DNA of 64,000 nt from Candidatus Schekmanbacteria bacterium (lineage in GTDB: Bacteria > CSSED10-310 > JACPHN01): assembly GCA_016188575.1 (NCBI GenBank), contig JACPHN010000029.1, forward strand, positions 1 to 64,000, given 5' to 3'. Within the stretch, counting starts at the first letter, position 1. Each line of letters opens with the position of its first letter. The translations under genes were made by a program, and so were the position numbers. Below are positions 1 through 48,274 of the stretch, in pieces. A model generated the notes under the pieces. It worked only from the letters and a program-made list of their open reading frames with translations, ran no database searches and was not told the DNA's origin.

Positions 1-135
1 GAGCACTACGAGCATTGGGCCATTCCCCCGAGCAACGGCGGCGCGACGCTGATGATCAACGGGCTGCTGTACCCACCGCCGCGCGCCTTCGGCCCAGCCG
101 ACCTCGGGGAGGTGCGCCTACACGCAAACCCATGA
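1..135 (+). CDS. C-terminal end of an unidentified protein (partial)
   Basis: An open frame enters from the left edge and gives 44 residues before TGA at 133-135. I do not recognise the product. Its last bases and the following ATGAGAGGATAAG spacer are closely matched by the sequence just before the decayed gene copy at 1281, so the junction between this gene and the next was duplicated. The stop lies 9 nt before the next start, which suggests co-transcription. Confidence 0.5.
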   Translation, partial: EHYEHWAIPPSNGGATLMINGLLYPPPRAFGPADLGEVRLHANP

Positions 136-144
136 GAGGATAAG

Positions 145-1215
145 ATGCGCAAGCTCGGAATCATCGCCGTGTTGGTCTCCATGCTCGCGGGGGTCGCGGA
201 GGCGCCGGCGGCGCAGGGACGCTCGCGCCCGAGTCGCTATCTGAGGTTCGGGGCTCATGACGGCGTGCCGAGCGGCCCTGACGTCATTGCCGAATACCTT
301 TTCGCGACCCGCGTTATCGGTTGGGTCACGCTGACAAATGGCAGCAGCAGGAGAGGTCCCTACCCGGTGTCCGCTGGTGGCGCCTCCTGGCGGGACTTCG
401 TGCGCCTGGAGATCCGACACGACGGCCAGCGCGCCGAGTCCTGGGTGGAGCTGACCTTCGATGTAGATACGTCCGCTTCCGGCCTTCCCTATCAACATCG
501 CCCCCATGGCGTGGATCGCTGGGAGAAGACCGAGAAGCTGCACCCGTCAAGCGAGCTGCGCCGCGACAGCTCGGTCTCGGTCCCCTTCGAGGTGCGGCTG
601 CGCGACGGCTGCCCGCTGCGGCGCGGCACCTACGAGGTAGTGGCATCGTTCGACCCGGCAATCGCGCGGGTGCCGGAGCTCGCGTGGATCGCTGAGCTCC
701 CACCGCAGCCCGAGCCCGCCGTGTGGCGGGTGGGCCTCACCCCGGAGGAGGCATCCATACCGCGGCACCGGTTCGAGTTTTTTCTGCGCGATCTGAACAA
801 GCAGCGCATGAGGCGAATTGATCGCTGGTCGCACTATGTGCGTTTTTGGCTGGCGGAGGCCGAAAAAGACCCGGCCAATCCCTATCTCGTAGCCGAGGCC
901 ATCAACTGGATGACCGGCTGGGACGAGATTGAGCGCCTTCTGATGGCGAAGCTCGCCTGGGTCGAGGCCGGGGGGACGTTCCGGAAAATGTCCTCCTGGG
1001 GCCTCACGCAAGCCCAGATTATCGAGTTTTCCTTGAATCGGCTTCGGAGCTACAGGGCCGAAGGAAAAACCGACGACGAGTGGGTGTTCATCCTCGGAAA
1101 CGAGCTCGGCTTCTATGACCTGCATCGCCGAGACAAGGCCCAGGACGACGTCATGGTCGGGGGTCCGCAGCTCCCGAGATTCCCCGCCTCCTGTCAGTTG
1201 CCGATGACGGAGTGA
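145..1215 (+). CDS. secreted protein of unknown function
   Basis: A 356-residue protein. The N-terminus (basic MRK, then about 17 hydrophobic residues ending AEA) looks like a Sec signal peptide, so the product is probably exported. The rest is rich in Trp, Arg and acidic residues with no motif I recognise. The first half, up to about residue 190, looks beta-rich. The second half, with charged helices and W-G/W-A pairs, looks helical. The start is supported by the GAGGATAAG-ATG ribosome site. The gene begins 9 nt after the preceding stop and is followed by a broken copy of itself at 1281-1575. Function unknown; gene reality is supported by the conserved coding pattern of the duplicate. Confidence 0.6.
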   Translation: MRKLGIIAVLVSMLAGVAEAPAAQGRSRPSRYLRFGAHDGVPSGPDVIAEYLFATRVIGWVTLTNGSSRRGPYPVSAGGASWRDFVRLEIRHDGQRAESWVELTFDVDTSASGLPYQHRPHGVDRWEKTEKLHPSSELRRDSSVSVPFEVRLRDGCPLRRGTYEVVASFDPAIARVPELAWIAELPPQPEPAVWRVGLTPEEASIPRHRFEFFLRDLNKQRMRRIDRWSHYVRFWLAEAEKDPANPYLVAEAINWMTGWDEIERLLMAKLAWVEAGGTFRKMSSWGLTQAQIIEFSLNRLRSYRAEGKTDDEWVFILGNELGFYDLHRRDKAQDDVMVGGPQLPRFPASCQLPMTE

Positions 1216-7630: not shown

Positions 7631-7641
7631 GCGACCCGGAC

Positions 7642-7717
7642 TTGACATGACCTCACTATGATATCATATAAATATCATTCCGATCTCATGTCGACATCTT
7701 TCTGATAGGAGCTCGCG
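7642..7717 (+). promoter_or_regulatory. AT-rich promoter with nested palindromes before the SPFH gene
   Basis: TTGACA at 7642-7647 and CATATA at 7665-7670 (17-nt spacer) make a sigma-70-like promoter in an otherwise very GC-rich window. Between and around them lies the perfect palindrome ATGATATCAT (7658-7667) followed by a second ATATCAT copy (7672-7678) and GATCTCAT, giving phased half-sites. AGGAGCTCGCG precedes ATG 7718. The half-sites would suit a ribbon-helix-helix repressor such as the one encoded at 8614 (inference). Confidence 0.6.
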
Positions 7718-8617
7718 ATGAAGGAAGTTCGGGAAACCAAGGGCTGGAAGGTCAACGGGTTTGCGGCGGCCGCGGTGGTTTTTTTTCTGATGCTATTTGA
7801 CGGGAGATTGATCCGGGACGCCGCGCGGCTGTCGGCGGCGGATCAGCGCAGCGCGGCGCTGGTGGTGGGAATCGGCGCGGCGCTGCTGATGCTGGCGTGG
7901 GGGCTCGCGTTCGCGGGCTTTTTCGTAGTGCAGCCCAATGAGGCGAGGGTGCTGGTCTTTCTGGGCAAGTACGCCGGGTCGGTAAGCGCGTCGGGGTTTT
8001 GGTGGACGAATCCGCTGACGGCGAAGAAGCACGTGTCGCTGCGGGTGCGGAACTTCAACAGCGAGCGCTTGAAGGTCAATGACGCAATCGGTAACCCGAT
8101 CGAAATCGCGGCGGTGGTGGTGTGGCGGGTAACGGACTCGGCACGGGCGCTTTTCGACGTCGACAACTACGAGACCTTTGTGGGAATCCAGAGCGAGACG
8201 GCCATTCGCGGCCTGGCGAGCAAGCATCCGTATGACAGCCACGATGGGGAGGAAGCGACGTCGCTGCGCGGCAGCCCGGTCGAGATCGCGGAGGGGCTCC
8301 GGGCGGAGATGCAGGCACGGCTCAGCGTCGCCGGTGTTGAGGTCATGGACACGCGGATCACGCATCTGGCCTACGCGCAGGAGATCGCACAGGCGATGCT
8401 TCGGCGCCAGCAGGCGCATGCGATCATCGCGGCGCGGCAGAAGATCGTGGAGGGGGCGGTCGGCATGGTGCAGATGGCGTTACGGATGCTGGACGAGCAG
8501 CGGTTGGTCAATTTGGACGAGGAGCGCAAGGCGGCCATGGTCAACAATTTGCTCGTGGCGCTCGTTTCCGAGCGCGAGGCGCAGCCGATCATCAACACGG
8601 GGACGTTGTACGCTTGA
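7718..8617 (+). CDS. SPFH / band-7 domain membrane protein
   Basis: 299 residues: two N-terminal hydrophobic segments (about 14-30 and 47-72), then a prohibitin-homology (SPFH) domain beginning [20 protein letters not shown], with [20 protein letters not shown] and [17 protein letters not shown], and a helical C-terminus rich in Ala/Gln/Arg. SPFH proteins oligomerise on membranes and scaffold proteases or transporters; the substrate is unknown. The stop overlaps the TTG start of the next gene (TTGA, 8614-8617), so the two are coupled. Pairing of this SPFH subtype with a small Arc-like protein is, to my knowledge, common. Confidence 0.88.
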
Positions 8618-8802
8618 GCGACAAGAAGCGATTTCTCTTGCGCCTGGAGCCGGAGTTGTACGCGCTCCTGGAGCGCTGGGCCGCGGACGAGCTTCGTAGC
8701 GTCAATGCGCAAGTCGAGTTCTTGCTCAAGGAGGCCGCCCGGCGTGCCGGGCGGTCGCGGCCGGAGGAGAGCTCGAGCGCGGGCAGGCCGCGGGAGGAGT
8801 AG
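8614..8802 (+). CDS. Arc-family ribbon-helix-helix protein
   Basis: 62 residues, TTG start overlapping the SPFH stop. The sequence [19 protein letters not shown] followed by [16 protein letters not shown] is a complete Arc/MetJ-type ribbon-helix-helix: beta strand RFLLRL, helix A, then helix B with the N-A-Q-V-E pattern. Such proteins bind operators as dimers. It probably autoregulates this two-gene operon through the ATATCAT half-sites at 7658-7690 (inference). The acidic/Gly tail is dispensable-looking. Confidence 0.82.
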
Positions 8803-8898
8803 CGGGGAATCGGCGTGCCGCCAATGCCGCGACGGGCGCGCTCGATGTCGCTGCGGCGCTGCTCATCTACTCGTGGTATGCTGCGCATGCGCAAAAAA

Positions 8899-9108
8899 GG
8901 GCGTCGGCCGAAGATGCATTACAATTGAGGCCCCCACGCAGGGGCGCGATTTGTCGAGCCCGGTCACCGCGGCCGGTAGTCGGGGCGGATCATTCTCTGC
9001 CGGATGATCCCCGGCCCGGCATTGGGGCGCGATGAATCGCGCCCTGCTTACCGAAGCCTGCGGCGGGGACAAGTGTAAAGGACGAAACCGGACATTCGGC
9101 CGACGCCC
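8899..9108. repeat. MITE-like element, copy 1
   Basis: GGGCGTCGGCCGAA at 8899-8912 and its exact complement TTCGGCCGACGCCC at 9095-9108 form 14-bp perfect terminal inverted repeats around a 210-bp unit. The inner part (GGCGCGATGAATCGCGCC, AAGTGTAAAGGACGAA and others) is nearly identical to 27472-27611. Runs of A flank both ends (AAAAAA before, AAAAA after), which may be a target duplication. No transposase is encoded. Confidence 0.8.
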
Positions 9109-9187
9109 AAAAAGCCTGCCGCGGCTGGCGCGGACCAGCGCAGCGGCGGTAGCGGGCACAACGAAGGGGAGCGCGTGGAAAGCTACG

Positions 9188-10237
9188 ATGAAGCCACTAG
9201 TGGTCAGGGTTGGCGCCTTGGGCGACCTGGTGATGTGCACGCCGGCCTTGCGGTACCTGTCGCGGCGGTTTGGGGCACCTGTAGACGTCCTGGCGCGTGA
9301 TCCGGCGCCCGCGCTCTTCGCACAGCTCCCTTTCGTCGGTTCCGTTTACTCGTTGCGCAGCAAGCGCACGCCGTTCTGGTTGGATTGGTCGCAGTGGGGT
9401 GCGGTGCGGTTTGTGGGCGCGGAGGGCCCGCGACCGCTGTTCGTTTTCGAGGACAATCGCAAAATCGACTGGCTCATCGAACGGGGGAGAGCAGGCGGGC
9501 CGCTCATCTCCTTCAGGGACCATCGGCGCCTGGGTAACGAGCACCAGATCGAGCAGCAGCTCCGGCTGTGCGCGATGCTTATCGATGGTGCTCCGCCGCC
9601 GCTGGCGGAGGAGCAGCGCGAGCCATGGACGGAAGTGCGCGTCGATGAGATGGAAATCCAGCGCTGCCGGCGTTTCCTTTCCAATGCGCTCGGAGCTGGG
9701 GACGCGCCGATTCTCGTGGTGCATCCGGGGAATAGCCGCACGCAGCGCGGGCGCGGCAAGGCGTGGGACCCCAAGTTCTGGCCGCTCTCGCACTGGAAGG
9801 TGGCGCTTGCCGAGATTCTGCGGGCGGATGCGGACGTCAGAATTCTGATCAGCGGCGTGGCCGCCGAGAGCCGCATCGCCGAGGAGCTGGTGCGCGCGAT
9901 TCCCGGCAATGCGCGGGCGCGATCGATCGCGGGGGAGCTCGACGTGCGCGGGCTCGCCGCGGTGCTGTGCGTCGCCACGGGGTGCATAAGTATCGACACC
10001 GGCCCGGCCCACCTCGCCGCAGCGGTGGGGTGCCCGCTCGTGGTACTCTTCGGTGGCACGGACCCACGTGTCAATCGCCCCGTGGCCAGAAGGAGCCCGG
10101 TTCAGGTGGTGACGGACGTGCACGGCGGCGGCCCGGAGGACAGCGAGCGGAGCTGGGCCGCCACCCACGACATTACCAGAATCGAGCCGGGTCAAGTGGT
10201 GGCCGCGTGGGAAGCGATCGCCGCCGCGCGCCGTTGA
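9188..10237 (+). CDS. glycosyltransferase family 9 (heptosyltransferase-like)
   Basis: 349 residues. N-terminal MKPLVVRVGALGDLVMCTPA is the hallmark of ADP-heptose:LPS heptosyltransferases. The C-terminal half has VVHPGNS and the nucleotide-sugar site CISIDTGPAHLAAAVGCPLV...LFGGTDP. It would transfer a sugar to lipopolysaccharide core or a related envelope glycan at the inner face of the membrane; the specific sugar cannot be read from sequence. I start at ATG 9188 because upstream codons are repeat DNA (the MITE at 8899-9108). It stands alone, 90 nt before psd, both on the plus strand. Confidence 0.9.
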   Translation: MKPLVVRVGALGDLVMCTPALRYLSRRFGAPVDVLARDPAPALFAQLPFVGSVYSLRSKRTPFWLDWSQWGAVRFVGAEGPRPLFVFEDNRKIDWLIERGRAGGPLISFRDHRRLGNEHQIEQQLRLCAMLIDGAPPPLAEEQREPWTEVRVDEMEIQRCRRFLSNALGAGDAPILVVHPGNSRTQRGRGKAWDPKFWPLSHWKVALAEILRADADVRILISGVAAESRIAEELVRAIPGNARARSIAGELDVRGLAAVLCVATGCISIDTGPAHLAAAVGCPLVVLFGGTDPRVNRPVARRSPVQVVTDVHGGGPEDSERSWAATHDITRIEPGQVVAAWEAIAAARR

Positions 10238-39306: not shown

Positions 39307-39858
39307 TCAAGCACCGAAGCCGAGCGAGATCGAAACGGCTCGGAGATCCTCAGGGGCCACGTCCCCTGCCTTCCTCCAGTTGAAGACCGGGGTGCTGCCG
39401 CTCACGAGATACTGGACACACGCTCCAGGGCAGCCGGGTTGGTCGGCGTAGACGTTCGAGAGCACCTCCGCGATTGAGCCCCTTGCCTGGCACGCGCTCC
39501 GTAGCACGCGGGCAAAGCCCGACTTACCGGTTCCGTTGTCGCCATAGACTATCGTCAAGCCGTCGGAGCCAAAGGTGAGGGTCTGGCCGTCAGGAATGGC
39601 GTTCAGGCATGTACAGCGAGAGATCCCTGCAACGGTTACCGCCGAGCCATTCCCGGAAGCTGACGGCACATGAGAGTTATCTATGGGGATCGAGGCAGGA
39701 ACGGCTGCCTGTTGGTTCGCCTCCGCAACGCAGGCGAGGGTCAAGGCAGCGATGTCCGCCGGCGTCAGCGAGACCTGGATGGCGAGCCGACGAAGAGCGT
39801 CACGTTGCCACAAGGGCAGGTTGCCCGACCACGCGATGCCATCGGCGTAGAAGCTCAT
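39307..39858 (-). pseudogene. 3'-truncated AAA (RloC/PrrC-like) ATPase
   Basis: 183 residues. WQRDALRRLAIQ near the start and YGDNGTGKSGFARVLRSACQ (Walker A) are typical of large AAA_13-type ATPases, some of which are anticodon nucleases associated with type I restriction systems. The family-like sequence ends at EDLRAVSI and is replaced by a short unrelated tail; full proteins are normally 700 residues or more, with coiled coils and Walker B. The start overlaps the stop of the PLD-like gene (ATGA), so it was the last gene of the restriction operon before truncation. Confidence 0.65.
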
Positions 39859-40781
39859 CTCTTCACCCCCACGACCGCCTTGGGCTCGTCGACGAGATCG
39901 AAGGCGCAGGTGTCGTTGAACTGTCCCCAGCGCTTGAGGAACTGGACGGCGTCCATGAGGTTGACGTCATCGGTCTGGCTTGCCTTGCCCTCATCTAGTC
40001 CGACGCCGAAGATCACGCCCCCGATGTCGGTCAGCAGATATCGGTTGTGGAGCTTCTCGCCGTTCCTGCGCTCAGACCACCGCTTGAAGCGAATTCTCAC
40101 TCCTGCAGCGATGTGCGAGCTCATCTGCGCTGCCTGCTGCTCAAAAAACGCCAGGGAAACGCCATTGTCGCCCGAACAGTGCACGCAGATATCCTTTGGC
40201 TGCCCGGACGGTCGTGATGCAACTACGGTCACGAGGTGCTCCAGCACCTTTCTGTGCCGGCTATTCTCGGGCCCGAAGTGGGGGTCGACGAGATGAAGCT
40301 CGTCGCAGTTCTCGACCAGCGCGGAAACCACCGCAGCTATCCCCTCCGGGGTTCGCGGCGGCGTCGCAGCCAGTGGTCTGTGCCAGAGGGGATTGCTTTC
40401 GTCGCCCACGGCGGCTTCCAGGAGCACGGCTGCGTGGGAGCGAGGATTGGCCATCGCGATGATGGCGGCAAAGGGGTGTCGCGCGTACTCCGCTTCGGCG
40501 TTATCCAGCCACGGTCGCGTGCCGTCATACGACGTGCCCACACGTCGCACGCGTTGGTCGCCGAGGAGCTTGAATAGCTCTGTCAATCGAGTCCGGTCGA
40601 GGTCTGAGAGGCTCACTTTCGACGCCGCGTCGAATACCGCCTTCCTCCACGAGGAGAACTTGGGCAACTCGAGGAGCAGCCTGGGCGTGCCGACGCCGAA
40701 CCGGCCGAACACGAGCCTGAAGGAACGGCGGTCACACCACGCAACCACGCAGTCCGGTTCGATGGCGTAGGCGTGAATCAT
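39855..40781 (-). CDS. phospholipase-D-superfamily-like protein in the restriction operon
   Basis: 308 residues from ATG 40781. The C-terminal half has ELHLVDPHFGP (a strand plus Asp turn common in PLD folds) and EKLHNRYLLTDIGGVIFG: H245-x-R247-x4-D252-x6-G259, an HKD-type motif with Lys replaced by Arg. Only one motif is visible, as in dimeric PLD nucleases. The N-terminal 100 residues are unlike anything I recognise. Starts 1 nt after the stop of the ATPase gene (TAG-G-ATG) and overlaps the truncated AAA gene. Possibly a nuclease effector, or a catalytically altered one; function unproven. Confidence 0.72.
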   Translation of the reverse strand: MIHAYAIEPDCVVAWCDRRSFRLVFGRFGVGTPRLLLELPKFSSWRKAVFDAASKVSLSDLDRTRLTELFKLLGDQRVRRVGTSYDGTRPWLDNAEAEYARHPFAAIIAMANPRSHAAVLLEAAVGDESNPLWHRPLAATPPRTPEGIAAVVSALVENCDELHLVDPHFGPENSRHRKVLEHLVTVVASRPSGQPKDICVHCSGDNGVSLAFFEQQAAQMSSHIAAGVRIRFKRWSERRNGEKLHNRYLLTDIGGVIFGVGLDEGKASQTDDVNLMDAVQFLKRWGQFNDTCAFDLVDEPKAVVGVKR

Positions 40782-40782
40782 C

Positions 40783-42471
40783 CTAGACCAGCTCCCGCAT
40801 CCTCTCGGCAAAGAAGCCTCGCGGCCATGGCCTCGCGAACTCGCCGTCAGAAGTGACCGGAAGCTCGATGATGCGAGAAGCAGGTCCCTCCGGCTCAATG
40901 TAGAGCACCGTGACGTCTTCCGGTAGGACTGGCCTTGCTCCGGCCGGCAACGTCTTCTCGGTGGTCTCGCGCACCCGTCGCAAGATGCGGAGAATCAGGT
41001 GCTCGCTGTGGGTTTCGAGCAGGAGGGTGTTCCGCCGCTCGCCGAGCGCCGACTCGATGAACACGTCCGCAAGCTCGGACTGCAGCGCGGGGTGAAGGTG
41101 GATCTCGGGCTGCTCGATGGCCACGGTCTTCTGGCGGTGGCCGTAGGCGTTGACCAAGACCGGGAGCACCTGGCTCACGCCGATGCCGACGTCCCGATGG
41201 CTCACCACGGTGTTGCTGCGCCGGTCGACGAGGACGATCTCGGAGAAGCGGTCGACGTCCGCCTCGCGAAGCACCGTCTTGAAGCTCTCCACCTCGGCAT
41301 CCACATCCTTGATGATGGGGTATGCTGCGGTCAGCTTGGGCTCGTCGTCGTACTCGGCTTCGATAGCAAGCCCGTCATGCTCTTGAATGGCCTCGATCGC
41401 GGAGCGCAGTGGCTTGTCGAGCTGGTCGAAGGCCACCAGGTCGCGAACCACGACTTCGTAGGGAGTGCTGAGCCGTTCCGGCGAGCTGAGCCAGCGGTTC
41501 ACGACTGCTCGCACGTCGTCGTCCCGTCTCAGGACATCCCAGGCCGCGCCGCCGCCGGCGTGCCAGTTTGGGTCGTGGTGAGGAGAGAACGCGAGATGGC
41601 GCGGGGGGTAGGAGCGCAGGGGGCCCAGGTAGTGGAATCCCTGGAGCGCCGTGGCCGCAGCATCCGCGACGCCGTTGATGAGATCGCGGAGCATGCGCGG
41701 CGCGGCCAGGCGCACGGTCCGTCGAACGTCCTCCTGGCGATCCCCCGAGGCCGCCGGCGAGATGAGCGCCTGAGCGAGGTCCTCCTGAGCCGAGCCCCTG
41801 AGCTGCACTCGGGGCAGCAGACCGCGGCGCTGGACGTCGAAGGTGGGCAGCAGGTCGTCGATGGCGGACTCCGCGGCGCCGATCTCGGCGTCTCCGACCT
41901 TCTGGTAGTAGGTGGCGCTCTCGATCAGCCCGCGCACGAAGCGCCGAAACACCGCGTGCTGCTGGTCGAGCCGGTCGATCCGCATGCGGCCATCGCGGCG
42001 CGCGCTCATGGACAGCAGGGGCTTGTCGTCGGCGAGAATGGCGCAGCTCTCCACGCCGACCACACGGCCCTGCTCGCGGGCGAGCTCGCCGAAGAGCGTT
42101 CGCTGCTCGCCGATGAATCCGAGGCCGATTGAAAGCCGAATGGAGACGGAGCCGACCGGCGCCAGGAGCTCGGCGAGCTGGTCCCTGGCGTCCGCGGTGG
42201 ACAGGTCCAGGCCCCACTCGACCCGACGGGCGGCGTCGCGGCGATGCACGTACTGGCGAAAGCCGCCGAGATCGATGGACTCGCCGCCGATCTCCGTGCG
42301 CTGCACGTCGAGGTCGCCCGTCAGCAAGCCGTGGTGGGCAAGCGCGAGGCTGTGGATCAGGCTAGACTTGCCGGCGCTGTTGGGGCCGTAGAGCAGGGTC
42401 AGGGGCCGAAGTGGCGCCTTCTGGGTCTCGGCGAAGGCCTTGAAGTTGCCGAGGTGCAGTCGTTTGATCAT
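40783..42471 (-). CDS. AAA family ATPase (SMC/OLD-like, DUF3696 type)
   Basis: 562 residues from ATG 42471 (TGGAGGTCAACGC). Walker A YGPNSAGKSSLIHSL (about 28-42), preceded by the N-terminal LHLGNFKAF typical of RecF/OLD-like ATPases; C-terminal ABC-like signature region VGIGVSQVLPVLV, Walker B VAIEQPEIHLHP and the switch His LLLETHSEHLILRI. The ATPase lacks a Toprim nuclease domain, so an effector is expected in trans; the PLD-like protein immediately downstream is the natural candidate. The start overlaps the hsdS stop (ATGA). Such ATPase genes are frequent beside type I restriction operons. Confidence 0.85.
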   Translation of the reverse strand: MIKRLHLGNFKAFAETQKAPLRPLTLLYGPNSAGKSSLIHSLALAHHGLLTGDLDVQRTEIGGESIDLGGFRQYVHRRDAARRVEWGLDLSTADARDQLAELLAPVGSVSIRLSIGLGFIGEQRTLFGELAREQGRVVGVESCAILADDKPLLSMSARRDGRMRIDRLDQQHAVFRRFVRGLIESATYYQKVGDAEIGAAESAIDDLLPTFDVQRRGLLPRVQLRGSAQEDLAQALISPAASGDRQEDVRRTVRLAAPRMLRDLINGVADAAATALQGFHYLGPLRSYPPRHLAFSPHHDPNWHAGGGAAWDVLRRDDDVRAVVNRWLSSPERLSTPYEVVVRDLVAFDQLDKPLRSAIEAIQEHDGLAIEAEYDDEPKLTAAYPIIKDVDAEVESFKTVLREADVDRFSEIVLVDRRSNTVVSHRDVGIGVSQVLPVLVNAYGHRQKTVAIEQPEIHLHPALQSELADVFIESALGERRNTLLLETHSEHLILRILRRVRETTEKTLPAGARPVLPEDVTVLYIEPEGPASRIIELPVTSDGEFARPWPRGFFAERMRELV

Positions 42472-43682
42472 GCGTTGACCTCCACGCCAGATCCCCCGAG
42501 CAGCCGCGCCTGCTGTTCCATTTCCTGCAACAGCTCCTTCATGTGGGCCTCGCGCCAGGAGGCGGTCAGGTCGCCGGAGAATGCTTGGTGAAGGAGTGCT
42601 GCAAAGAGCTTCTCGATAGCTCTTGAGGCCAAAACTCCGTTCTCCAGGGTTCTCCGGACGCCGCTCCATAACGCCGCAAAGGTCTCCTGCGTCTTCATTT
42701 CAACGATTGGCACTCGAATCGCCCGAAGTCCCGCAGTGCTGATATTGGACTGCCCTGCTGTTGTCCGGATGTGCGGCGCCATCGCTTGGCGCCCTGCAGG
42801 AGTGCGCAAGAAAGCAGTGACATACCAAGGATGCACCTTGTCCTGCTTCATCCGTGCACGGATTAGGTAGGAGGCGAATAGCGTCACATCCTCGCCGTTC
42901 TCTTGATAGACAGCACATCGGCCAACGTAGTCCCGGTTGCCGTTCGTTCTCACAAAGAGCACATCGCCGTGCTGCAATCTGAGACGCTCACATTCCCGCG
43001 TAGACAGCTCCGCGTACTTCAGGTCTGAGCGGTCAATAACCCCACCAATGATATTGGGGATCCTCAGAACAGGAGATCGTGAAGAGTCACGGTCGCATCG
43101 CGTCGATGTGCCGTAGCGCATATCAGCTACAAGCTGTCCAAGGGGAACCACCTCATTGGCACCCTCGGGAAACATCTTCATGAACAGCGCCGGCAAGATG
43201 CGCTCGGCCTTCGCGTCGGCCTCAGCTCGCAGCCTCCGCAGCGCATCGGCCTGGTCAAGGATCTCGATGATGCGGTTCTGCTCGGATGGTGGCGGGAGAG
43301 CTACCTTGAGCTCTCGGAGAAACTGGTAGTGACGACTATAGCCGCGGTCGGGAAGCTGCTGAGCCTGAAAGTAATAAAAGAGATACTTTGGGAGTGCTGG
43401 AGGCCGAGCGACTAGCACCTTTACGCCATCGGCACCCAGAGCGAACGGGAAATCGACGTACTTGAATCTGCGAGTGTGGTCGCCAAATAGGACCACCGGC
43501 AGCGAACCCGGATACTGTGCATCGGGATCGTTCGTGAAGCCGGCGATCTTCTCACTGCCTTGGTCCACAACTGGGAGTGCACCCTCGACGAGGTAGTCCT
43601 TCTTCTGAACCTTGCGGAGCCTTGAAGGCGGGGTCCCTACCACCGAGTCGAAGTCAAACTGCCTGAAAGTGGGCGCACTCAT
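42468..43682 (-). CDS. hsdS: type I restriction-modification specificity subunit HsdS
   Basis: 404 residues with the usual two target-recognition domains and two conserved helical spacers: TRD1 (about 1-130) ending LPPPSEQNRIIEILDQADAL, spacer helix RRLRAEADAKAERIL, TRD2 (about 175-345), then the second spacer near FAALWSGVRRTLENG and LLHQAFSGDL. HsdS sets the DNA target of the methylase and nuclease. Overlaps hsdM upstream and the AAA ATPase downstream by 4 nt each. Looks intact. Confidence 0.92.
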   Translation of the reverse strand: MSAPTFRQFDFDSVVGTPPSRLRKVQKKDYLVEGALPVVDQGSEKIAGFTNDPDAQYPGSLPVVLFGDHTRRFKYVDFPFALGADGVKVLVARPPALPKYLFYYFQAQQLPDRGYSRHYQFLRELKVALPPPSEQNRIIEILDQADALRRLRAEADAKAERILPALFMKMFPEGANEVVPLGQLVADMRYGTSTRCDRDSSRSPVLRIPNIIGGVIDRSDLKYAELSTRECERLRLQHGDVLFVRTNGNRDYVGRCAVYQENGEDVTLFASYLIRARMKQDKVHPWYVTAFLRTPAGRQAMAPHIRTTAGQSNISTAGLRAIRVPIVEMKTQETFAALWSGVRRTLENGVLASRAIEKLFAALLHQAFSGDLTASWREAHMKELLQEMEQQARLLGGSGVEVNA

Positions 43683-45335
43683 TCGATGCCCTCTACGTCT
43701 CTCAACAAGCCCTCAAGCCCGGTTTGGAGATGTGCCTCAATCGCAAGGACCTCCCGAATCAGTTCCTTGGGATCCTCGTCCGGAACCTCCTCGCCCACGC
43801 GCGGCTTGTAGCGGCTGGCAGCGAGGTTGTAGTCGTTGGCCGCCACGGTCTTGAGCGACGCCCACCAGCAGCGCGGCTGGGAAGCCCCCGGCTCAATGAC
43901 CGTCCCGGTCTCGACTCCCGGCGGGTTCTTGAAGCTGCCCTGCTTGTGCTCCTTCCACGCCGCGACGAGGGCGGGAATGTCGTTCAGCTCTGGCGTCTCG
44001 GGCCGGCCGCCTCCCTGGATCTTGTCCGGGTCGTTGCCGTCGTTCTTCACCTCGTAGAACCAGATCTTGTTGACTGCTCGCTTCTTGCCCTCGGCGGGCC
44101 GGCGGAAGACCAGTACCGCGGTCTTGACGCCCGCGTAGGGCCTGAAGACGCCAGCCGGCAGGGAAACGACTGCCAGGAGATCAAAGTCCTCGACCAGCTT
44201 TTTCCGCAGCTCGATGTGGGCATTGTTGGAGCCAAACAGGAGCCCTTCAGGCACGACCACGGCGCACCGTCCGCCGGGCGCGAGGTGCTTCATCATGAGG
44301 CCCAGGAAGAGCAGCTCGCTCTTCTTCGAGTTGGTCGGCAGGTCGTTGCGAATGGAATCCTTGGGGAGTTGTCCGGCAAAGGGCGGGTTGGAGAGGATCA
44401 CCTTGTAGCGGCGATTGAGATCGTCCTCGGTCAGCCCACCGAGCTCGGAGAGGCTATTGGCGCGCTTGAGCCGGGCGTGGCGGATGTCGTGCAACACGAG
44501 GTTCATCATCGAGATGCGCATGAGTTGGCGAGACACGTCCACGCCGTGGATCGACGCCTCGAGCGTGGACCAGTCCGGGATCCTCTCGCCGGGCCCCTTG
44601 CGATAGGTCTGAAGGTTGGGGATGGCATCCTTGGCCTCGGACAGGGTCTGGGCGCGCCGCTCGAGCCAGTCTTCGCCGTAGATCGGCACCTCCGGCCTCC
44701 TCGCTGTACTTGGCGAGCAGGTAGTCCACGGTGTCGATGAGGAAGCCGCCCGTGCCGCAGGCCGGGTCGAAGATCGTGTCGCCGAAGTCGGGGTCCACCA
44801 TCTCCACCATGAAGGCGCGGATCTGGCGCGGCGTGCGGAACTGGCCGTTGAGCGCGGACTGGCCGAGGTGGGTGAGCAGGTACTCGAACACATCGCCCTT
44901 GACGTCCGGGCCGAGCTTCTTGAACTCGATGGTGTCGAGCTCGTCGATGACCTGCTTGAGCACGGCCGGGTCCACGATCTCGAGCACAGCCTCACGGAAG
45001 TACTCGGCCACGCGGGGCTCGTCCTTGACCAGCGAGGCCATGTAGGGAAAGACCTCGTCGCGCACGTAGTCGCGCAGATGGTTGCCGCTCTTGAACTTCC
45101 AGTTCGACCAGCGATAGCGGCTCGCCTGCTGGGGAAACAGTAGCGTGCCGTTTCCATTTGCTCCGGCCGAACCGAGCATGCGGGCGCGCAGCTCCCGCTC
45201 CGACTCCTCCTCGTCGAGGAGCTTCAGGAAGATGAGATACGAGATCTGCTCGATATAGGTCACCGGGTTGGTGACTCCACCGGCCCAGAGGATGTCGGTG
45301 ATGTGCTTGAGCTTGCGGCGAATGTCGTGGTTCAT
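43679..45335 (-). pseudogene. hsdM: type I methyltransferase HsdM, frameshifted
   Basis: From ATG 45335 the frame reads MNHDIRRKLKHITDILWAGG..., and SAM motif I FDPACGTGGFLIDTVDY, then loses homology after LAKYSEEAGG. Homology resumes one base off as EVPIYGEDWLERRAQTL, with motif IV ILSNPPFAGQL, and ends at 43679. A one-base insertion in GGAGGCCGGAGG near 44690-44704 explains it. As written, the first product has motif I but no NPPF, so methylation should fail; a sequencing error is the alternative. Ribosome site TGAGGAGAGC overlaps the hsdR stop. Expected full length about 550 residues. Confidence 0.85.
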
Positions 45336-45342
45336 GCTCTCC

Positions 45343-48075
45343 TCATCCGCCTGCGGCGCCGCGGGTCGCGGGCGCGAAGACGCTCTCGTTCAGGTCGTTG
45401 ACGATGTCCTTCAGCCCATCCTCGCCGAACAGCTCCACGCCCATGCCCGCGGCGTTCAGAATGGACAGCGGAGGCTGGAAGAGATCCTCGATGCCCACCC
45501 TGCCCCGGGCAATGCCGCGGTTCTTCAGCAAGGAGACGTACTGGGCCTGCTCGGAGCTGAGCGACCGAGTGACGACCCAGGCGCGAAAGCTCTCTTCGAG
45601 CCGTTCCTCGCGGCCCTTGACCTTGATGAGGCCGAGGGCGGCACGGATGAAGTCGATCAGCGTGCCTCCGGGGTTGCGGTAGGCGCGCCGGAGGTTTTCC
45701 TCGTTGAAGTAGAGCTCTGGCTTGTTGAGCCTGCGGGCCAGATCGTCCTCTTCCGCGGAAGTGAGGGGCTCGCCCTCTCGGACCTTGGCGAGGATCGGAT
45801 CTGCCTGCGACTGCGTCTTGATCGCCTCCTCCCAGTGGGTGACGTACTCGCGCTTGTCGACACGTTCGCCGTCGGGGCCAATCTCCACGTAGCTGACCGC
45901 CTCGAGCCATTCGTCCTCGAGGCCGAGCTCGATCAGGTTGTCGGATGGCCGAGGCCCCTGGCGCGGTCCCGATGGCGCATGCCCCCGCCCCGTCCCGGTG
46001 AAGGCGTCTGTATCGTTGTCGTTGAAGTACTGATGGTTGCGGAAGAAGTCGTAGATGACGAACTTCCGCTTGCCGATGTGCGGCGCGGTTCGCGTGCCAC
46101 GACCGCGCATCTGCTGGTAGAGGATGGGACTGCGCACGCGCCGGGCCATGACGAGGTGGAGCACCTCGCGACAGTCGAAGCCCGTGTCCAGCATGCCCAC
46201 ACTCACCGCGACCTGCGGGTACTCTTCCTGCTTGAACCTCCGAATAGCGTCATCGGCGTCGGAGACGTCGCTCGTGATCACTGCGGCGTAGCCGCCATTC
46301 TGCTCCGGATGCAGCTCGTTGAGGTATCGGGCGAGACGGGCGGCATGATGCTTGCTGATGGCGAAGACGATGGTCTTGCCCGGCCCTGTCTTCTGACCGG
46401 GAGCGAGGTCGTGACAGCTTTCGTGGGCGAGCCGGTCGAATTCTTCCATCATCAGGCGGTTGGTCTTGTCGTTGGTCCATTTTCGCTCGAACTCGGCCGG
46501 GTCGTAGTGCTCATCTTCGGCGTCCGCGCCCTCAGCGATCAACTCCGTGATGCCCGTTGCGAACTGGTAGGGCACGAGAAAGCCCTCGTCGAACGCAGTC
46601 TGTATCGGGAAGGAGAAATCCGGTTGTCCATCCTTGCAGTGATAAAAGTCGAAGGTGTTGCGCTCGATGTAGGCCGCCGGCGTTGCCGTAAGGCCGATGT
46701 GGAGCGCGTCGAAGTGCGTCAGCGCCACCTGCCATGCGCCGTAGATCGAACGGTGACACTCATCGGCGATGACCACGTCGAAGTAGGCGCTCGTGTACTC
46801 CTGATATCGGCCAATCATGGTCTGGAGCAGGCACACGGTGATCTGCTGCTCCTGTCTCTGGGCGCCGGGCTTGAGCCAGTAGCTCGGATGGCCGCTCAGG
46901 ACATCTTGCAGCGCGGCCACCGCCTGCTTGGCGAGCTGTTCCCGGTCGACGAGGAATAGCACACGCTCGGTCCAGCCGGCCTCGATCAGGCGTTTGAGCT
47001 GAAGGCAGATGAGATCCGTCTTGCCGGTGCCGGTGGGTAGCTCGATGAGGAAGCGGCGCTTGCCCAGTTCCATGGCCCGATCGAGCGCACGCATTACGTC
47101 TTGCTGGTAGGGTCGCACTCTCCTGGTTTCACCCTGGCGGATGTAGCACTCGGGGATGGGAACCGTGGCGAGCGCCTTTCGCGTGCTGCGCATCTCGACC
47201 AAACGCTCGAGATCCCGTCGGGAGAAGAACGAGTCGACAATGCGCGCGTCGTCGTTCTGGTAGTCCCAGAAGTAGATGAGCTCGCCGTTGGTGAGGAAGA
47301 TGAACGGGGCTCCCAGCTCCTTGGCGTAGGGCAGCGCTTGCTGCTTGGCGATGTACGGGTGGATGGCCTGCTTCTTGGCCTCGATCACGGCCAGGGGGCG
47401 CCCCCGCTGATCGCTCAGGACGTAGTCGGCTCGACCGCCTCGCGGCTGGGTGGCGGCGGGTGTCACCACGGCCACGAGCTCGCCCACGACTCGAATCTCG
47501 CCTTCGTCCTCCGGTGAAAAGACGAGCGGCTGGAAGACCGGGTCAGGGTTGAGCGGTTCCAGTCGGATCTCCGTATGGCTCCACGAGCCATCGGCCTCCG
47601 CAACCTTCTCGCTCTTGTAACGCTTGACGGAGAACTCTCCTCCCAGGGCCGGGTCGTTGCAGCCTCGGTGCCAGACCAGCACGAGCTTGCCACCGCGGCT
47701 TCCGCCCCGCTCGAATCGGAAGAGGCAGTACGAGCCGTCGGGGATTGTCGGCTCCATGGAGCGACCGCTCACCTTCGCGATGAAGTGATCGCGCGTGAGC
47801 CGAATGTGGTCGGGGACAGGCAGCCAGCCGCGTTCCTCGGTATCGATCTCCTGATCTGGCCCGAACGCACCCGCGGCTGCGACGAGATCGATGACAGGAG
47901 CGTGCCTGTCGAAGGGCTTCGCCTCGGATCGGTCAAGCAGATGTGGTTCGGCGTCGACGTTGCCGGTGGAGACCTCCGTGCGCACCTGCGACTTGTCGGC
48001 CGGGTTCCAGCCGGCGGCGCGCAGCAGATCGTCTATCACGATCCTCGCGTCTGCTTCCGTGCGGCTGGTGCTCAT
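45343..48075 (-). CDS. hsdR: type I restriction subunit HsdR with inserted LexA/UmuD-type S24 peptidase domain
   Basis: 910 residues. Order: HsdR N-terminal helix (about 8-35); an S24 domain (about 60-205) with AAAG (Ala68-Gly69), SGRSMEPTIPDGSYCLF (Ser106) and FSVKRYK (Lys151); then the rest of the PD-(D/E)xK nuclease, RADYVL (D217) and VIEAKK (E232, K234); helicase motor with LPTGTGKT (346-353), DECH (438-441), LTATP, and QMRGRGTR; and a C-terminal helical R-subunit region. The nuclease/translocase acts with HsdM2S. The peptidase splits the nuclease fold in sequence, and the Ala-Gly site lies 37 residues before Ser as in LexA (34). ATG 48075 overlaps the HTH gene stop. Confidence 0.88.
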   Translation of the reverse strand: MSTSRTEADARIVIDDLLRAAGWNPADKSQVRTEVSTGNVDAEPHLLDRSEAKPFDRHAPVIDLVAAAGAFGPDQEIDTEERGWLPVPDHIRLTRDHFIAKVSGRSMEPTIPDGSYCLFRFERGGSRGGKLVLVWHRGCNDPALGGEFSVKRYKSEKVAEADGSWSHTEIRLEPLNPDPVFQPLVFSPEDEGEIRVVGELVAVVTPAATQPRGGRADYVLSDQRGRPLAVIEAKKQAIHPYIAKQQALPYAKELGAPFIFLTNGELIYFWDYQNDDARIVDSFFSRRDLERLVEMRSTRKALATVPIPECYIRQGETRRVRPYQQDVMRALDRAMELGKRRFLIELPTGTGKTDLICLQLKRLIEAGWTERVLFLVDREQLAKQAVAALQDVLSGHPSYWLKPGAQRQEQQITVCLLQTMIGRYQEYTSAYFDVVIADECHRSIYGAWQVALTHFDALHIGLTATPAAYIERNTFDFYHCKDGQPDFSFPIQTAFDEGFLVPYQFATGITELIAEGADAEDEHYDPAEFERKWTNDKTNRLMMEEFDRLAHESCHDLAPGQKTGPGKTIVFAISKHHAARLARYLNELHPEQNGGYAAVITSDVSDADDAIRRFKQEEYPQVAVSVGMLDTGFDCREVLHLVMARRVRSPILYQQMRGRGTRTAPHIGKRKFVIYDFFRNHQYFNDNDTDAFTGTGRGHAPSGPRQGPRPSDNLIELGLEDEWLEAVSYVEIGPDGERVDKREYVTHWEEAIKTQSQADPILAKVREGEPLTSAEEDDLARRLNKPELYFNEENLRRAYRNPGGTLIDFIRAALGLIKVKGREERLEESFRAWVVTRSLSSEQAQYVSLLKNRGIARGRVGIEDLFQPPLSILNAAGMGVELFGEDGLKDIVNDLNESVFAPATRGAAGG

Positions 48076-48218
48076 CGGTGCTCCTCCGTTTTGCTGCCAA
48101 CAGCACTTTTCGTGTCACCCGCCAAACCGTACCGCTGCAGCCGGTTGGAGAACGTCTGGTAGCTGGGCAGGCCAACGAGGTCAGCAGCCTTCGTCTTGCT
48201 GCCCGACGCTTCGTCCAT
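48072..48218 (-). CDS. small Fis-type HTH protein or C-terminal remnant of a sigma-54 activator
   Basis: A 48-residue frame, MDEASGSKTKAADLVGLPSY then QTFSNRLQRYGL, is a complete Fis-type helix-turn-helix like that at the C-terminus of sigma-54-dependent activators. An in-frame TGA lies 7 codons upstream, so it is either a micro-gene or the surviving end of a larger regulator cut off by the repeat at 48275. The stop overlaps the hsdR ATG (ATGA), so translation of hsdR may be coupled to it and it may autoregulate the operon. Confidence 0.55.
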   Translation of the reverse strand: MDEASGSKTKAADLVGLPSYQTFSNRLQRYGLAGDTKSAVGSKTEEHR

Positions 48219-48274
48219 CGCACGGGTGACGTGGCTTCATTGGAGGTTGGATTCTTGCTGTTCATCTTCCGGAC

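Follow-up and report, generated by a model that had tools for sequence, protein, structure and literature searches.

A LexA/UmuD-type S24 peptidase module within the nuclease of a type I restriction subunit: a candidate built-in off-switch that recurs on other restriction enzymes and helicases

The HsdR protein encoded in the window (the whole 64,000-nucleotide stretch of contig JACPHN010000029.1, Candidatus Schekmanbacteria bacterium, that was analysed) contains, on very good evidence, a complete LexA/UmuD-type S24 peptidase in the loop before the Asp217 strand of its nuclease (Table 1). Sequence comparison gives equally strong support for strong purifying selection on the Ser-Lys dyad and the Ala68-Gly69 bond of this domain, and its self-cleavage activity is very probably retained. 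We put the probability that this type I restriction subunit carries its own self-cleaving off-switch at about one half. An S24-bearing HsdR joins two known kinds of protein; the surprising part is the pattern of a mobile module, the domain also being joined to seven or more further kinds of restriction enzyme or helicase in many bacterial phyla.

Table 1. Features of the S24-bearing hsdR gene and its operon (window coordinates; residue numbers refer to HsdR).
Feature	Coordinates	Strand	Basis
hsdR with inserted S24 domain (910 aa)	45343..48075	-	ORF, translation, Pfam, PDB match 3h1t
Nuclease fold, first part, residues 1-37 (helix 7-20, strand near 32)	47965..48075	-	Model; aligns to 3h1t
S24 (LexA/UmuD-type) module, residues ~58-207	47455..47904	-	Pfam; model; match to LexA, lambda CI, UmuD'
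Predicted scissile bond Ala68-Gly69, context LVAAA/GAF (bond after AAA)	47869..47874	-	Sequence; conservation in relatives
Catalytic Ser106 (GRSMEP)	47758..47760	-	Invariant, 89/89 and 55/55
Catalytic Lys151 (SVKRY)	47623..47625	-	88/89 and 56/56
Nuclease, second part, residues 210-290: D217, E232-x-K234, Q245...Y250	47206..47448	-	Pfam HSDR_N; invariant in aligned orthologues
SF2 motor, residues 310-690; GTGKT 349-353, DECH 438-441	46006..47148	-	Pfam ResIII + Helicase_C
EcoEI_R_C C-terminal domain, residues 743-898	45382..45849	-	Pfam
hsdM, frameshift near 44692-44697	43679..45335	-	Two overlapping ORFs; HsdM_N, N6_Mtase; orthologues in one frame
hsdS	42468..43682	-	Pfam Methylase_S; Specificity_I
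AAA/OLD-like ATPase; start uncertain, overlaps hsdS end	40783..42669	-	Pfam AAA_15/AAA_21

The assignment to type I restriction was based on the PD-(D/E)xK nuclease, the SF2 motor and the position of hsdR as the first gene of an hsdR-hsdM-hsdS operon, downstream of which lies the gene of the AAA/OLD-like ATPase. Along the protein, Pfam revealed Peptidase_S24 (residues 66-200), HSDR_N (210-276), ResIII (320-467), Helicase_C (561-662) and EcoEI_R_C (743-898), all above their cut-offs, and the best sequence match among solved structures was the HsdR fragment 3h1t (E 6.8e-42); against the EcoAI/FtnUII HsdR equivalog NF046051 the protein reached 262 bits, below the curated NCBIfam cut-off of 550. 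The interruption of hsdM (44692-44697, minus strand) is absent from the orthologous loci and may be an assembly error or a recent loss of methylation. Neighbours approximately 45% identical to the AAA ATPase (40783-42669, minus strand) were present beside S24-type hsdRMS genes at three orthologous loci (L022, L023 and L025), and at L023 the homologue was accompanied by a relative of the window gene at 39855-40898. Directly upstream of hsdR (window ~48078-48230, minus strand), an HTH-like C-terminus (AADLVGLPSYQTFSNRLQRYGLA) was recognised by eye that is perhaps the leftover of a regulator gene.

The S24 domain itself was identified by Pfam with 31.7 bits (E 1.4e-7; curated cut-off 23.3) and by structure prediction. 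The AlphaFold model used comprised residues 1-320 (pLDDT 75.8; the full-length model, from eight sequences, was unusable at pLDDT 41.9) and revealed a strand at 58-67, a loop at 68-77, an S24 beta fold to about residue 207 and the nuclease strands 218-221 and 227-233; the cleavage loop 68-77 was modelled at low confidence (pLDDT < 50). In VIA-align comparisons the model matched the HsdR structure 3h1t over residues 2..301 (Z 14.6) and, over ~58..207, LexA (Z 12.4), lambda CI taken from its complex with RecA (Z 12.2) and UmuD' (Z 9.2), while a sequence search of solved structures with the module profile returned a LexA match only, and a marginal one. Ala68, within A66-A67-A68-G69, is positioned 38 residues ahead of Ser106. 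A conserved proline and an aromatic residue in the Omega subzone set LexA apart from signal peptidases (PMC12984324), and this marker was present as P174 and F181 (proline at 174 in 85/89 relatives, Phe or Tyr at 181 in 86/89). The initial annotation, made from the sequence of the window, had described an HsdR with a LexA/UmuD-type self-cleavage domain inside its nuclease: this architecture is borne out by Pfam, the model and nine orthologues that share it, the residues named there (A66-A67-A68-G69, S106, K151, D217, E232 and K234) are exact, and the proposed overlay on LexA and UmuD succeeded; only the extent of the domain had been drawn slightly short, the fold running from ~58 to 207 according to AlphaFold and VIA-align.

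The insertion point could be defined by the closest relatives that are devoid of the S24 domain, L135 and L137 (48% and 45% identical to the window HsdR). At this site they read ...SVLFEHALPDGSRADYVL... and ...SVLFEHVLPDGTRADYVL..., respectively, and the window protein reads ...QVRTEV-[S24 module]-GGRADYVL...; the place of the module is taken in L135 and L137 by the five-residue loop LPDGS or LPDGT. In consequence, the module is seen to replace a five-residue loop that leads from the first nuclease strand to the strand of Asp217. Alignments that combined full-length with S24-less HsdR were left out, the N-termini being misaligned in them. No substitution of D217, E232, K234 or Q245 occurs among the aligned orthologues, and the nuclease therefore appears functional.

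The nine orthologues with the S24 domain inside the nuclease (L020-L027, L119) are approximately 70% identical to the window protein and originate from metagenome-assembled genomes labelled as Latescibacterota, Planctomycetota, Acidobacteria, Gammaproteobacteria, Aminicenantes, Binatia and others. Their loci encode HsdM proteins of 67-81% identity and divergent HsdS proteins, and the AAA ATPase is present in three of them. All named S24 and nuclease residues were kept in eight of the nine; the remaining one, L024, has lost the nuclease and half of the motor in frame and is alone among the orthologues in having Gly for Ala at P1, a single case of joint loss that proves little. Mean pairwise identity amounted to 0.81 at residues 57-72 and 0.73 in the rest of the S24 domain, versus 0.44 for one linker and 0.22 for the other, which argues for purifying selection around the cleavage site.

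Beyond the orthologues, the catalytic residues were followed through the relatives of the module. In a first set, Ser was present in 89/89, Lys in 88/89 and alanine at P1 in 85/87 modules; among all rows that extend to this position, three deviate, namely the distant protein on contig C171 of the same genome (Cys), L024 (Gly) and the LexA of this genome, the last because of a misalignment. Because this set had been fetched by motifs next to the Ser and around the Lys, a second count was made on genomes that had been drawn with no motif requirement: among the 56 matches obtained, Ser was kept in 55/55, Lys in 56/56 and alanine ahead of the scissile bond in 54/55, followed at P1' by Gly (45), Thr (9) or Ser (1). 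About one fifth of the relatives have Thr or Ser in place of Gly, unlike the Ala-Gly and Cys-Gly scissile bonds of the known cases (PMC10020695). That nucleophile, base and substrate residue are all kept in unrelated hosts is expected of an active self-cleaving enzyme and not of a scaffold. The reading as a self-cleavage domain finds strong support in the fold, the dyad, the Ala-Gly bond, the Pro-aromatic marker and the near-perfect conservation in relatives, and the dyad, whose absence from homologues would have refuted it, was recovered in the unbiased draw.

A search of one genome collection with the module as query confirmed 254 related stretches, of which 80 were fetched; host classes were assigned from Pfam hits and from similarity to representatives that had been scanned with Pfam. 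The module relatives, 41-52% identical, were attached to restriction enzymes (HsdR of the EcoR124/HindI type, two other SNF2-type HsdR groups, type ISP enzymes and one Eco57I-type enzyme), to helicases (Schlafen-group-3 and MrfA-like MZB proteins, one of the latter with a DUF559-type nuclease domain) and to small proteins with an uncharacterised N-terminal domain. In most hosts the module forms the very C-terminus; in others it is situated between nuclease and motor or inside the nuclease. The database search for further S24-bearing HsdR proteins was thus answered by the nine orthologues and by the module on other HsdR families: the S24 HsdR first noticed in the window is real, whereas its framing as an isolated case did not hold. 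The window's genome alone encodes at least four module-bearing proteins, including an SNF2 HsdR with a C-terminal module, and a module fragment lies at a contig end. Another of its genes (L013, 4951-8562, minus strand) encodes an EcoR124-type HsdR in which the S24 domain separates nuclease and motor; this is a further internal insertion site, independent of the one in the window HsdR. On contig C171 (L015, 6034-9519, minus strand), a methyltransferase-PLD-SF2 helicase ends in an S24 domain of a distant subfamily, with ACG at the cleavage position and a dyad Lys that the alignment does not clearly place. One of the small proteins, the chromosomal L074 (unknown N-terminal domain plus S24 module), adjoins a MutY-like glycosylase (HhH-GPD, NUDIX_4), the two genes occupying 7638-8456 and 8558-9520.

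In the module tree, the window type formed one clade (support 100), adjacent to the small-protein type as in L074 (support 96), and the other host classes were interleaved; 19 host changes were needed versus a minimum of 11, an exact number that is unreliable given the many weak inner branches. Judged by these sequences, the S24 domain behaves as a module that has moved between proteins. Its generic occurrence across hosts favours a general regulatory role over a peculiarity of this nuclease, and its recurrence on many enzymes is suggestive of a common built-in switch linked to DNA damage.

Genomes were also drawn by the phyla of four seed genomes (phylum names as in the seed records, seed genomes counted in). 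The module was present in 31/193 genomes of Omnitrophota (~16%), 26/297 of Acidobacteriota (~9%), 18/294 of Planctomycetota (~6%) and 5/398 from the phylum of a gammaproteobacterium seed. It was not found in 50,697 phage records and occurred in one of 72,556 plasmids, a Halomonas megaplasmid. There (L100, 6989-9459), a Schlafen-group-3 helicase precedes the S24 module; the two are read in different frames and overlap by 70 bases, as a result of a frameshift or a split gene. IMG/VR contained two close module matches, both in large proteins, and the only classifiable one (L101) is an HsdR relative. No description of S24 domains on restriction enzymes was found in the literature searched (open-licence papers, which do not prove absence), and the concentration in uncultured environmental lineages may explain this.

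In the off-switch that we propose for the window HsdR, RecA filaments, formed e.g. after the enzyme has cut the host's own DNA, would dock loop 68-77 into the S24 active site, whereupon the protein would cut itself at Ala68-Gly69. The cut would split residues 1-68, i.e. the first nuclease helix and strand, from the remainder and would expose a C-terminal Leu-Val-Ala-Ala-Ala like the latent ClpX signal of cleaved LexA; ClpXP could degrade the piece with the exposed Ala-Ala-Ala end. Loss of the 1-68 piece would disable cutting, and hsdM and hsdS would keep methylating, which would amount to restriction alleviation by the enzyme itself. Where the module is C-terminal, cleavage would give a host enzyme that is complete up to a new ...AAA or ...AVA end, a possible degradation mark. 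Either way, restriction would come to a halt and methylation would continue. By analogy with LexA, UmuD and lambda CI we infer that cleavage of the module would be triggered by RecA; a regulatory role of the module is plausible. RecA, LexA and ClpX are all encoded in the window's genome, and a comparison of its lexA, recA and hsdR promoters for LexA boxes found no shared operator. As precedents, LexA cleavage exposes latent ClpX signals and the cleaved LexA is destroyed (PMC10584840), and in types IA and IB ClpXP destroys HsdR after DNA damage (PMC12707154); the putative ClpX signal of the cleaved window HsdR is proposed by resemblance. Against the ClpX step counts lambda CI, which is self-cleaving and yet no ClpXP substrate (PMC10584840), and against the off-switch as a whole counts the plasmid-induced alleviation of EcoKI in E. 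coli, which is independent of LexA cleavage (PMC11109961). The wider proposal, that the mobile module acts as a general damage-coupled off-switch by which RecA filaments lead to enzyme destruction bypassing transcription, and that it entered several HsdR families, type ISP enzymes and Schlafen-type and MZB helicases through repeated capture, is tentative and stands at somewhat less than even odds.

Cleavage might also act in the opposite direction and activate the enzyme, as in the conversion of UmuD to UmuD': the intact insert beside Asp217 would block the nuclease until RecA filaments arising during infection release it. Indeed, the insert directly precedes the strand of the catalytic Asp, cleavage switches UmuD on, and in our own reading the spacing from the proline to the scissile bond resembles that of UmuD. 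However, a steric block would not be general for a module situated at the C-terminus, at the nuclease-motor junction or inside the nuclease, and the cut in the window HsdR would split the nuclease fold itself; activation is therefore considered unlikely. The C-terminal domains of LexA and UmuD dimerise, and the type I complex works with two HsdR subunits, so that a dimerisation or protein-docking module devoid of a proteolytic role could be envisaged; a pure scaffold is unlikely to keep Ser (55/55), Lys (56/56) and Ala (54/55) together in the unbiased set, and this possibility appears quite improbable.

Self-cleavage could, furthermore, be constitutive or triggered by DNA binding or translocation of the enzyme, independently of RecA, as a maturation or timer step. 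The conserved dyad and site are compatible with any trigger, and ClpXP attacks EcoKI once it is assembled and translocation-competent (PMC12707154); in contrast, the structural relatives with known triggers (LexA, UmuD and lambda CI) all use RecA (PMC10020695), and we regard a RecA-independent trigger as rather improbable for the window HsdR. An incomplete genome of 275 contigs and a frameshifted hsdM might finally raise the suspicion of a chance fusion or an assembly artefact in one metagenome bin; with nine orthologues of the same architecture from independent assemblies, its likelihood is negligible and this explanation was ruled out.

It has long been asked how cells keep type I enzymes from destroying the host chromosome after damage, with ClpXP and the tuning of assembly as the answers so far; if the off-switch is true, an SOS domain that cleaves itself within the enzyme would be a third and directly testable answer, and RecA-triggered self-cleavage would no longer be confined to repressors and polymerase subunits but would include antiphage nucleases. 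The window HsdR shares nuclease, SF2 motor, EcoEI_R_C domain and hsdR-hsdM-hsdS operon with the EcoAI/EcoEI branch (3h1t) and differs from it in having a 150-residue self-cleavage domain for a five-residue nuclease loop. With UmuD and LexA the module has in common the fold, the Ser-Lys dyad, the Ala-Gly bond 38 residues before the Ser and the Pro-aromatic marker; unlike these, it is devoid of a DNA-binding repressor part or a polymerase partner and is joined to restriction enzymes and helicases. The methyltransferase-PLD-SF2 helicase on contig C171 is alike in that an S24 domain ends a large SF2 protein, but has ACG for AAAG and belongs to a more distant S24 subfamily. As in the ClpXP-mediated alleviation of EcoKI, a damage-linked proteolytic removal of HsdR (PMC12707154) is proposed for the window protein; in EcoKI, however, an outside protease reads the assembled complex, whereas the window HsdR carries its own self-cleaving domain.
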